In this document: positions 53,700 to 57,250 of the stretch, piece by piece | Numbering within the stretch: position 1 is the first letter of the stretch | Layout: every line of letters begins with the position of its first letter | Origin: Piscinibacter sp. XHJ-5 | GTDB taxonomy: Bacteria > Pseudomonadota > Gammaproteobacteria > Burkholderiales > Burkholderiaceae_C | Direction of reading: 5' to 3' | Assembly (NCBI RefSeq): GCF_029855045.1 | Contig: NZ_CP123228.1 | Location: 1,240,001-1,304,000, forward strand | DNA length: 64,000 nt | Program-made: the position numbers and the translations under genes | Notes under the pieces: generated by a model | Told to the model about the DNA's origin: nothing | The model's database searches: none | Seen by the model: the letters and a program-made list of their open reading frames with translations, nothing else

Positions 53700-53714
53700 G
53701 TTCACGGCGTGAAC
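53700..53714. promoter_or_regulatory. Putative operator GTTCAC-GGC-GTGAAC before the MarR-type regulator gene
   Basis: Perfect 6-base dyad with a 3-base centre, flanked by C and G that extend it to 7. It lies 13 bases upstream of the regulator ATG and 5 bases downstream of the -10 element TACACT on the minus strand, covering the expected transcription start. The same dyad occurs at 57236-57250. Confidence 0.65.
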
Positions 53715-53719
53715 GCGCG

Positions 53720-53725
53720 AGTGTA
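53720..53725 (-). promoter_or_regulatory. -10 element of the regulator/EPS operon promoter
   Basis: TACACT on the minus strand, 5 bases before the dyad operator. I see no good -35 at the right distance, which suggests that activation or another sigma factor might be needed, or that the promoter is weak. Confidence 0.35.
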
Positions 53726-53774
53726 GTGCATGCGGCGGGTGATGCACCGGCCGCGTGCACGAAAAGCGCGAAGC

Positions 53775-54326
53775 TCAGTCGAAGGTGCGTGCGTCGCGCC
53801 AGGCCGGTGCCTGGACGTCCTTGGCGGACAGCTGCGGCGTGCCCGCGACGGCCGGCCAGGCAACGCCGATGTCCGGGTCGTTCCAGCGCACCGCCGCCTC
53901 GCACTCGGGCGCGTAGTAGTCGGTGGTCTTGTAGAGAAAGTCGGCGAACTCCGACAGGACCAGGAAGCCGTGGGCGAATCCGGGCGGAATCCACATCTGC
54001 CGGTGGTTGTCGGCGCTGAGCTCGGTGCCCACCCAGCGGCCGAAGGTCGGGCTGGACCGCCGCATGTCGACCGCCACGTCGAAGACGGTGCCGCTGGCCA
54101 CACGCACCAGCTTGCCTTGCGCGTGCGGCGCGAGCTGGTAGTGCAGCCCCCGCAGCACGCCCCTGGCCGAGCGCGAATGGTTGTCCTGCACGAAGCGCAC
54201 CTGGCGGCCCAGCGCGGCGTCGAAGGCGCGCTGGCTGAAGCTTTCGAGAAAGAAGCCGCGCGCGTCGCCGAAGACCTTGGGTTCGAGGACCAGCACGTCG
54301 GGCAGGTCGGTGCGGATCACTTTCAT
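53775..54326 (-). CDS. rfbC: dTDP-4-dehydrorhamnose 3,5-epimerase
   Basis: 183-residue cupin enzyme that epimerises C3 and C5 of dTDP-4-keto-6-deoxy-glucose. FGDARGFFLESF, RGLHYQLAPHAQGKLVRV (catalytic His region) and WIPPGFAHGFLVLSE are canonical. The length matches RmlC. Its ATG shares a base with the rfbA stop, and it is the last gene of the four-gene rhamnose unit. About 60 bases separate its end from the palindrome of the next operon. Confidence 0.96.
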   Translation of the reverse strand: MKVIRTDLPDVLVLEPKVFGDARGFFLESFSQRAFDAALGRQVRFVQDNHSRSARGVLRGLHYQLAPHAQGKLVRVASGTVFDVAVDMRRSSPTFGRWVGTELSADNHRQMWIPPGFAHGFLVLSEFADFLYKTTDYYAPECEAAVRWNDPDIGVAWPAVAGTPQLSAKDVQAPAWRDARTFD

Positions 54327-55213
54327 CAGTAGACCTTCTCTCTGAGGACCTTCAGCAGGTACTGCCCGTACCCGTTCTTGAGCATCGGCTGGGCCTGCGC
54401 CTCGAGCTGCTCGGCACTGATCCAGCCGGCGCGAAAGGCGATCTCCTCGAGACACGCCACCTTCAGGCCCTGCCGCTTCTCCAGCGTCGCGATGAACTGG
54501 CTCGCTTCCAGCAGGCTGTCGTGCGTTCCGGTGTCGAGCCAGGCATAGCCGCGGCCCATGATCTCGACATCGAGGCGCTGCTCGTCGAGGTATCGCGCGT
54601 TGACATCGGTGATCTCGAGCTCTCCGCGAGCGGACGGCTTGATGTCGGCGGCGATGTCGCACACGCGGTCGTCGTAGAAGTACAGCCCGGTCACCGCGTA
54701 GTTGCTCTTCGGTGCCTTGGGCTTCTCCTCGATGCTGATGGCCCGGCGGCCGGCATCGAAGGCGACGACGCCATAGCGCTCGGGGTCCTGCACGTGGTAG
54801 GCAAAGACCGTCGCGCCTTGCGTGCGCTCCGCGGCGCTGCCGAGCAGGGCGTGGAAGTCGTGCCCGTAGAAGATGTTGTCGCCGAGGACGAGCGCGCTGG
54901 GCGCTCCATCGACGAAGCGGCGTCCGAGGACGAAGGCCTGCGCCAGCCCATCGGGGCTCGGCTGCACGCAGTAGCTCAGGCGGATGCCCCAGCGGCTGCC
55001 GTCGCCCAGCAGCGCTTCGAAGCGCGGGGTGTCCTGCGGTGTGCTGATGACGAGGATCTCGCGGATCCCGGCCAGCATCAGCGTGCTGAGCGGGTAGTAG
55101 ACCATCGGCTTGTCGTACACCGGCAGCAGCTGCTTGCTGATCGACAGCGTCGCCGGATGCAGGCGAGTGCCGGAGCCGCCGGCGAGGATGATGCCCTTGC
55201 GAGCGCGGGTCAT
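54326..55213 (-). CDS. rfbA: Glucose-1-phosphate thymidylyltransferase
   Basis: 295-residue nucleotidyltransferase that makes dTDP-glucose, the first dTDP-rhamnose step. LAGGSGTRLHPATLSISKQL is the catalytic loop, VLGDNIFYGHDF the metal-binding region, and EEKPKAPKSNYAVTGLYFYD the sugar site. The length is standard for RmlA. It follows rfbD by 23 bases and precedes rfbC by TGATG overlap. Confidence 0.96.
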   Translation of the reverse strand: MTRARKGIILAGGSGTRLHPATLSISKQLLPVYDKPMVYYPLSTLMLAGIREILVISTPQDTPRFEALLGDGSRWGIRLSYCVQPSPDGLAQAFVLGRRFVDGAPSALVLGDNIFYGHDFHALLGSAAERTQGATVFAYHVQDPERYGVVAFDAGRRAISIEEKPKAPKSNYAVTGLYFYDDRVCDIAADIKPSARGELEITDVNARYLDEQRLDVEIMGRGYAWLDTGTHDSLLEASQFIATLEKRQGLKVACLEEIAFRAGWISAEQLEAQAQPMLKNGYGQYLLKVLREKVY

Positions 55214-55236: not shown

Positions 55237-56133
55237 TCAGCCGAGAACTTCGCACAGCATGCGCTCGACACCGGCTTCCCACGCCGGCAGATGGACGCCG
55301 AAGGCGTCGCGCAGCTTGTTCGTGGCCAGACGCGAGTTGAGCGGCCGGCGCGCCGGCGTCGGGTACTCGGTCGTCGCGATCGGCTCGATGTCCTGCAGCG
55401 CCACGCGAACCGCCTGCCCATGCGCGCGCGCCCATTCGATGACGTGGCAGGCATAGCGGTGCCAGCTCGTCTGCCCTGCGGCGGCCAGGTGGTACAGGCC
55501 GGACAACGCGGGCCGGGCCATCGCCGTGCGCACCGCGTGCGCCGTGACGTCGGCGATCAGCTCGGCCGAGGTCGGCGCGCCGACCTGGTCGTCGATCACC
55601 CGCAGTCGATCGCGTTCGGCGGCCAGCCGCAGCATCGTCCGGGCGAAGTTGCCCCCGCGCGCGGCGAAGACCCAGCTGGTGCGAAAGATCAGGTGCCTTG
55701 CGCCGCTGGCCGCAATGGCCTGCTCGCCCTCGAGCTTGGTCCGGCCATAGGCGCTCAGCGGGCCGGTGGGCGCCAACTCGTCGCGCGGCTGGTCGCCGGA
55801 GCCGTCGAAGACGTAGTCGGTGCTGTAGTGCACCAGCCACGATCCCATGGTCGCCGCCGCCTGCGCCAGCGCAGCCGGCGACGCGGCGTTGATCGTGCGC
55901 GCGAGGCCGGTGTCGCTCTCCGCCCGGTCGACTGCCGTATACGCCGCCGCGTTGACGATCACGTCGGGACGCAAGGCGAGGGCGGTTTGCGCGACTGCCT
56001 GCGGCTGCGACAGATCCCCCGACAGACCTTGCGCGCCGGCGCGGTCGAGCGCGATCACCTCGCCCAGCGGGGCCAGGGAGCGCTGCAGCTCCCAGCCGAC
56101 CTGTCCGTTCTTGCCCAGCAGCAGGATCTTCAT
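55237..56133 (-). CDS. rfbD: dTDP-4-dehydrorhamnose reductase
   Basis: 298-residue SDR that reduces the 4-keto group to finish dTDP-L-rhamnose. The nucleotide motif is LLGKNGQVGWEL, the active site has STDYVFDGSG and SAYGRTKLEGE (Tyr, Lys), and RTSWVFAARGGNFARTM is diagnostic of RmlD. It follows rfbB by 11 bases. Confidence 0.95.
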   Translation of the reverse strand: MKILLLGKNGQVGWELQRSLAPLGEVIALDRAGAQGLSGDLSQPQAVAQTALALRPDVIVNAAAYTAVDRAESDTGLARTINAASPAALAQAAATMGSWLVHYSTDYVFDGSGDQPRDELAPTGPLSAYGRTKLEGEQAIAASGARHLIFRTSWVFAARGGNFARTMLRLAAERDRLRVIDDQVGAPTSAELIADVTAHAVRTAMARPALSGLYHLAAAGQTSWHRYACHVIEWARAHGQAVRVALQDIEPIATTEYPTPARRPLNSRLATNKLRDAFGVHLPAWEAGVERMLCEVLG

Positions 56134-56144
56134 CGCGGCCTTCC

Positions 56145-57212
56145 TCAGGCCGCCGCGCGTACGCCGTAGTGGGTGTCCATCCATTCGCGGTACGCGCCGG
56201 TGCGCACGCTGTCGACCCATGCCGTGTTCTCGAGGTACCACCGAACAGTCTTGTCGATGCCGCTCTCGAACGTCTCGGCGGGCTGCCAGCCGATCTCGCG
56301 CTCGGTCTTCGTGGGGTCGATGGCATAGCGCCGGTCGTGTCCCGGCCGATCGGCGACGTACGTGATGAGGTCTTCGTGGCGCCCGGCCGGTCGGGGGCGC
56401 AGTGCGTCGAGCTTGCGGCAGATGGTGGTGACGACGTCGATGTTCTTCACTTCGTTCTTGCCGCCGACGTTGTACGTCTCGCCTGGCCGGCCCTTTTCGA
56501 GCACCTGCCGGATGGCTTCGCAGTGGTCGCGCACGTACAGCCAGTCGCGGATGTTCTGGCCGTCGCCGTAGACGGGCAGCGGCTTGCCCTCGAGGGCGTT
56601 GAGGATCATCAGCGGGATCAGCTTCTCGGGAAAGTGATAAGGCCCGTAGTTGTTGCTGCAATTGGTGGTCAGCGTGGGCAGCCCGTAGGTGTGGTGATAG
56701 GCGCGCACGAGGTGGTCGCTGCCCGCCTTGCTGGCGGAATAGGGACTGTTGGGCGCATACGCCGTCGTCTCGCTGAAGGCCGGGTCGGTGTCCGAGAGAG
56801 AACCGTAAACCTCGTCCGTGGAGACATGGAGGAAGCGGAAGGCCGCGCGATCGTCCGCTGGCATGCTGCTCCAGTAGGCGCGCGCCTCCTCGAGCAGGCT
56901 GAAGGTGCCGACGACGTTGGTCTGGACGAATTCGCCGGGCCCGTGGATGGATCGATCGACATGGCTTTCGGCTGCGAAATGGAGCAGCGCGCGAGGCCGG
57001 TGGGCCGCGAGCAGCTGGCGCACCGCTTCACGATCGCAGATGTCTGCCTGCACGAGGGTCGCCTGGCCGCTGCGCAGGTGCGACGAGATCGTCTGGGGGT
57101 TGCCTGCGTAGGTGAGCTTGTCCAGCACGATCACCGGCTCGCTGGAATGGCCGAACCAATGGTGGACGAAGTTGCCGCCGATGAAGCCCGCGGCGCCGGT
57201 GATCAACAACAT
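56145..57212 (-). CDS. rfbB: dTDP-glucose 4,6-dehydratase
   Basis: 355-residue extended SDR. TGAAGFIGGNF binds NAD, STDEVYGSL and SPYSASKAGSDHLVRAYH supply Thr, Asp, Glu, Tyr and Lys of the active site, and NCSNNYGPYHFPEKLIPL is diagnostic of RmlB. The ATG at 57212 has a clear GAGGAGAG ribosome-binding site. It heads the rhamnose unit, whose promoter region carries the palindrome shared with the MarR-type gene. Confidence 0.96.
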   Translation of the reverse strand: MLLITGAAGFIGGNFVHHWFGHSSEPVIVLDKLTYAGNPQTISSHLRSGQATLVQADICDREAVRQLLAAHRPRALLHFAAESHVDRSIHGPGEFVQTNVVGTFSLLEEARAYWSSMPADDRAAFRFLHVSTDEVYGSLSDTDPAFSETTAYAPNSPYSASKAGSDHLVRAYHHTYGLPTLTTNCSNNYGPYHFPEKLIPLMILNALEGKPLPVYGDGQNIRDWLYVRDHCEAIRQVLEKGRPGETYNVGGKNEVKNIDVVTTICRKLDALRPRPAGRHEDLITYVADRPGHDRRYAIDPTKTEREIGWQPAETFESGIDKTVRWYLENTAWVDSVRTGAYREWMDTHYGVRAAA

Positions 57213-57235
57213 GAACGAGCTCTCCTCGATGGCGT

Positions 57236-57250
57236 GTTCACCTCGTGAAC
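57236..57250. promoter_or_regulatory. Putative operator GTTCAC-CTC-GTGAAC before rfbB
   Basis: Perfect 6-base dyad with a 3-base centre, identical in both arms to the site at 53700. It lies 23 bases before the rfbB ATG and 7 bases after the -10 element TACAAT on the minus strand, so a bound protein would cover the transcription start. Confidence 0.65.

Follow-up and report, generated by a model that had tools for sequence, protein, structure and literature searches.

A conserved palindrome as the probable operator of MarR_EPS regulators in surface-glycan gene clusters

Two palindromes with identical six-base arms, GTTCAC and GTGAAC, lie before a MarR-type regulator gene and before rfbB in a stretch of 64,000 nucleotides (nt) from Piscinibacter sp. 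XHJ-5 (assembly GCF_029855045.1, contig NZ_CP123228.1, positions 1,240,001 to 1,304,000 of the forward strand; this whole stretch is the window, and coordinates are counted from its first letter). Which protein reads these palindromes, and which genes does it control? An initial annotation had proposed, from the letters alone, that the regulator controls its own 30-gene operon and the rhamnose operon together. Our analysis indicates that the palindrome is most likely the operator of this regulator, a member of the MarR_EPS family (TIGR04176), which would repress the glycan operon that it belongs to and, in this genome, also rfbB; it is the position of the site that suggests repression. Since relatives in other bacteria have this sequence at the corresponding location, the cluster's own regulator very probably docks at the palindrome.

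Conservation of the palindrome before MarR_EPS genes

Both palindromes were found where the initial annotation had placed them, as were the minus-strand -10 elements TACACT and TACAAT before them (Table 1). The pattern GTTCACNNNGTGAAC has exactly two exact matches in the complete genome of 6,648,202 base pairs (bp), which are these two places. The reversed control pattern has no match in the genome (~0.14 expected from the window composition), and the relaxed 10-base form GTTCA-N5-TGAAC occurs solely at the same two places (~1.2 expected). The gene behind the first palindrome, described initially as an EPS-associated MarR gene, proved to match the MarR_EPS profile well above its cut-off, and its protein is the sole match to itself in the genome.

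Among 150 genomes of the family of the source genome, 30, the source included, have a TIGR04176 match over the cut-off. GTTCA-N5-TGAAC (hereafter N5) is present within 250 nt upstream with all ten arm bases (10/10) in 22/30 and with at least nine in 25/30, compared with 0/293 and 1/293 control windows, respectively. In a wider genome scan, the best 80 of 575 relatives, chosen by likeness to the window protein, have a 10/10 site within 250 nt in 69/80 cases versus 7/4590 control windows, and several exact sites lie beyond this zone, upstream of the gene run leading into marR. Merging with two further surveys gave 188 loci and 156 distinct regulators, classified as 118 with Lys or Arg, 19 with Gly and nine with Ser, Ala or Thr at position 43, and ten fusions. 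Two loci whose helix was not matched by the script were left out of this count, namely L082 with a 9/10 site and L105 with a 10/10 site 448 nt upstream in the wider scan. Three loci carry odd bin labels, possibly from misbinned contigs (Bacteroidia for L061 and L065, Verrucomicrobia for L080).

Two loci have doubled sites. Two exact operators stand near one regulator in L060, at 1263 nt upstream of marR, where the -10 stretch recurs along with the operator; L115 has two exact operators 249 and 217 nt upstream, their starts being 32 nt apart.

Site anatomy and position relative to the promoter

Site anatomy was examined in 111 of 112 N5 sites, one being too close to the end of its stretch; the arms of these sites are fixed by selection. 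The six-base arms of the initial annotation hold in this genome but not as a family trait, for the conserved arms of the family are five bases long and the sixth (inner) pair is complementary in 43/111 sites versus 34.6 expected if independent. The flanks are biased, with C or T before the site in 104 and A or G after it in 108. A TANNNT element ends 0-10 nt before the site in 95/110 cases, versus 16, 5, 10 and 7 of 110 in upstream-shifted windows. Transcription is expected to start ~7 nt after a -10 element, so that the predicted start falls inside operator 1 and at the edge of operator 2. The half-site centres are 10 bp apart, which is about one turn of DNA and would suit a winged-helix dimer on one face of the DNA.

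Covariation of the recognition helix and the site

A model of the MarR_EPS monomer built from 65 sequences is a winged helix-turn-helix (HTH) with a mean predicted local distance difference test score (pLDDT) of 86.4, comprising three helices and a wing of two strands, followed by one long C-terminal helix. The predicted recognition helix spans model residues 40-52 (the model begins at residue 2), and position 43 is the K of SLGK. A first model from 30 sequences, which had no wing and no match at E <= 0.001, was superseded by this one.

Stand-alone regulators with Lys or Arg at position 43 have an N5 10/10 site at most 360 nt before the helix in 107/118 cases, whereas shuffled stretches reach such a site 0.0003 times per region; here as in the wider scan, the motif is kept upstream of orthologous regulators. 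In six of the 11 misses (L077, L093, L095, L097, L107 and L112), a 10/10 site lies further away, 639-2785 nt upstream and before genes that precede the regulator. The far site precedes an RfaH/NusG-like gene in L077 and L093 (RfaH scores 141.0 and 129.2, under the cut-off of 144.5) and sugar-modifying genes in L095, L097 and L107, two of those in L107 being identified by profile. In L112, the gene that follows the operator resembles, by eye only, an RfaH/NusG-like antiterminator gene. As for the other misses, L098 has a 10/10 site with a four-base centre (GTTCA-N4-TGAAC, hereafter N4), L015 has N4 9/10, L027 and L250 have N5 9/10, and L268 has no upstream DNA.

The 19 Gly-type regulators include one with N5 10/10, one with N4 10/10, two with N5 9/10 and four with N4 9/10; four of the nine with Ser, Ala or Thr have N5 10/10. 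The contrast between Lys/Arg (107/118) and Gly (1/19) gives p = 4e-14 by Fisher's exact test, uncorrected for kinship. Across these sequences, therefore, changes in the predicted recognition helix accompany changes in the site. Two genomes, G332 and G176, have two family members each, and the second members, L228 and L229, have a divergent helix, INVST; no site of at least 9/10 was found for L228, L229 or L204, and L213 has N5 9/10.

Fusions to sulfate adenylyltransferase/APS kinase

In the f55 genomes (L269-L279), a MarR_EPS-type HTH forms the N-terminus of a bifunctional sulfate adenylyltransferase/adenosine 5'-phosphosulfate (APS) kinase; fusion L272, for instance, scores 902 bits with NF004040 and 92.7 bits with TIGR04176. 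GTTCA-N4-TGAAC lies upstream of all ten distinct f55 fusions, a count that leaves out three further matches with open frames near 700 amino acids (G716, G627 and G690), and three fusions have a second copy 48-49 nt further up. The same fusion occurs in Roseibacterium sp. (Rhodobacterales; L311) with 85 % identity and its own GTTCA-N4-TGAAC. Since the same half-site precedes these HTH-enzyme fusions, it follows the HTH rather than the exopolysaccharide (EPS) context, and the fused enzyme may control the expression of its own gene.

Extent of the regulon

A one-mismatch search of the Piscinibacter sp. XHJ-5 genome returned 93 forward places, the two exact ones counted in. TANNNT was found 0-10 nt upstream, on either strand, at none of the 33 of 91 one-mismatch places examined, which were not a random sample (13 loci returned by the search and 20 picked from the listed places), and a wide regulon in this strain is thus unsupported. 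In 31 genomes that have a family member, the motif was counted 82 times; in 62 of these sites that were examined, TANNNT is in position at 12/12 marR sites and at 4/50 others. Twenty genomes without a family match have 29 sites, with TANNNT in position in 1/17 examined. As the element stands at all 12 marR sites and at few others, the usual target of the family appears to be the regulator's own operon.

Alternative explanations

Several observations weigh against a MarR_EPS operator that serves both promoters. At either spacing, 11/19 Gly-type regulators have no site of at least 9/10. L015 and L098 have Lys and yet N4, and 8/10 fusions have Arg at the SLGK position and yet N4, so that residue 43 alone does not set the spacing. 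TANNNT at 0-10 nt is lacking in 15/110 sites. The samples overlap, share ancestry and, as the 80 loci of the wider scan were chosen by likeness to the window protein, lean towards it. In the 31 genomes, the 82 occurrences of the motif are little above the 56 of the reversed pattern, and the motif alone therefore predicts nothing. Lastly, a site within 250 nt of rfbB is absent in 17 of the 18 other loci that carry rfbB on the same strand as marR; in one of these 18, L064, rfbB stands downstream of marR, and the rfbB matches of L071 and L079 reach only 48-53 %. This absence favours a narrower explanation, in which MarR_EPS controls its own operon only, the family's usual target being its own promoter, and the match at rfbB is fortuitous or a place of inconsequential binding. 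We consider this rather unlikely, since the rfbB site in Piscinibacter sp. XHJ-5 matches at all 12 bases, lies 23 nt before the gene and has TACAAT in position. Given ~1.2 relaxed sites expected in the genome, post hoc arithmetic puts the odds of a site in a 100-nt promoter stretch by the cluster at ~2e-5. Moreover, L063, the sole exception among the 18 loci, shares the arrangement, its site beginning 48 nt before the estimated rfbB start with TACACT 5 nt before it. With 1/18 other loci, rfbB is rejected as a family-wide target, and the site before it is probably an additional target that few lineages have, a chance occurrence being unlikely. The joint control proposed initially is thus well supported as regards self-control, because the site is conserved, adjoins a -10 element and varies with the recognition helix; its rhamnose part is plausible in this genome but fails as a family trait.

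The remaining explanations concern how the site acts and what binds it. MarR_EPS might activate, for example by displacing a silencer as SlyA and RovA do; the structural matches of the model include chains of both proteins, which is uninformative on function. We hold activation to be improbable, because in the 95 sites with TANNNT in position a bound protein should block polymerase, and activator sites usually lie further upstream. Conservation of a promoter site names no binder by itself, so the site might belong to another DNA-binding protein controlling these promoters, but it varies with the MarR_EPS helix and its half-site follows the HTH into an unrelated enzyme fusion, making this a still fainter prospect. 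Least credible of all is a role in RNA, where a stem of 6 bp with a 3-nt loop could form a hairpin at or near the predicted start of the transcript. The arms keep their letters, and as they are fixed by selection in the 111 sites, the inner pairs alone are informative; these show no clear excess of complementary changes, and the hairpin was rejected.

Genes of the window

Profile matches of its neighbours place the MarR_EPS gene in a surface-glycan gene cluster (Table 1). By scripted gene calls, a same-strand run of 30 genes extends from 53686 down to 21203 with a largest gap of 87 nt. The 30-gene operon of the initial annotation therefore stands as 30 predicted same-strand genes, while its operon status is presumed. 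Profiles identify gmd, PseB, PseI, wecB, DegT-type aminotransferases and sugar-modifying enzymes in the run, together with glycosyltransferases and an EpsG-family protein; fcl scores 492.4 bits, under its cut-off of 500, and a protein resembling an ATP-binding cassette (ABC) exporter stays under all its cut-offs. Genes of a pseudaminic-acid type (PseB, PseI, a cytidylyltransferase/aldo-keto reductase fusion, GNAT and PIG-L) and a heparinase II/III-like protein lie at 42570-51199 and 22465-24105. Operator 2 is situated within a divergent intergenic stretch (57213-57312) and ends 62 nt before the start of a WecA/MraY-like gene, which may be a further target candidate.

Table 1 Predicted operators, promoter elements and genes in the window
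Feature	Position	Strand	Remark
Putative operator 1, GTTCACGGCGTGAAC	53700..53714	.	Before marR_EPS; exact match, conserved in relatives
-10 hexamer TACACT	53720..53725	-	5 nt upstream of operator 1; same position in 95/110 relatives' sites
Putative operator 2, GTTCACCTCGTGAAC	57236..57250	.	Before rfbB; L063 also has a site at rfbB
-10 hexamer TACAAT	57258..57263	-	7 nt upstream of operator 2
marR_EPS (TIGR04176), 124 amino acids	53312..53686	-	135.9 bits, cut-off 88
29 further glycan-cluster genes	21203..53301	-	Scripted gene prediction; presumed co-transcribed with marR_EPS
rfbB, rfbD, rfbA, rfbC (dTDP-rhamnose supply)	53775..57212	-	TIGR01181, NF007440, TIGR01207 and TIGR01221, all over cut-offs
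Divergent WecA/MraY-like gene	57313..58404	+	TIGR02380 70.4 bits, under cut-off 326

Relation to MarR and PadR proteins

MarR, MexR and SlyA are autorepressors of the MarR superfamily. MarR_EPS resembles them in its winged HTH and in a palindrome in its own promoter, here by position and conservation, and differs in being short, with one long C-terminal helix in the model. Against Pfam, it matches MarR_2 (PF12802) with 29.9 bits, over the cut-off of 27, and PF01047 under its cut-off. A sequence search of the PDB gave a single weak match (E 0.062), whereas MarR chains top the Foldseek list obtained with the model (E 6e-5). In VIA-align, chains of PadR-type short winged-helix regulators and MarR chains are tied, MarR lying within 1 Z unit (11.8). 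No separate ligand domain is visible in the model, so that a partner protein might provide the releasing signal, as might a small molecule at the dimer interface.

By profile score and by its location in a glycan cluster, the regulator belongs with the TIGR04176 family. In the literature searched, which leaves most subscription journals outside, we found no operator or regulon for this family, in keeping with the earlier suggestion that the motif may be new; in passages of PMC10599003 and PMC8007912, the family is merely named.

Discussion

From the computed place and conservation of the site and its tie to the recognition helix, we infer the following mechanism. MarR_EPS would bind as a dimer that inserts one recognition helix into each GTTCA half-site, thereby covering the start point of transcription, which follows closely on the -10 element, and blocking RNA polymerase. 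In this way its own gene would be repressed, as would the 29 glycan genes that follow, provided that they are co-transcribed, until a signal lifts the repression. The second operator in this genome would place rfbBDAC under this control as well, so that dTDP-rhamnose would be supplied in step with its use.

A local autoregulator of the MarR type is ordinary as a kind. What is new here is an operator predicted for the whole family, the way in which it changes together with the recognition helix, and an enzyme fusion carrying the operator. We lean slightly towards a broader view, in which MarR_EPS proteins and the fusions form one superfamily reading GTTCA-like half-sites, with spacing set by helix and dimer: N5 in Lys/Arg stand-alone proteins, and N4 in some Gly types as well as in the fusions. 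The superfamily would consist of local switches heading surface-glycan operons, at times before an RfaH-like antiterminator, and genomes of the Rhodobacterales type would have fused the switch to sulfate adenylyltransferase/APS kinase, turning a metabolic enzyme into the repressor of its own gene.

MarR_EPS genes occupy the surface-glycan clusters of many proteobacteria. The conserved 15-bp operator would offer a predicted regulon for each genome, usually one operon, and a testable DNA target for a little-studied family. The covariation of helix and site provides natural variants for studying how a small winged-helix dimer may read spacing, and the enzyme fusion represents an unexpected branch of this regulator family.

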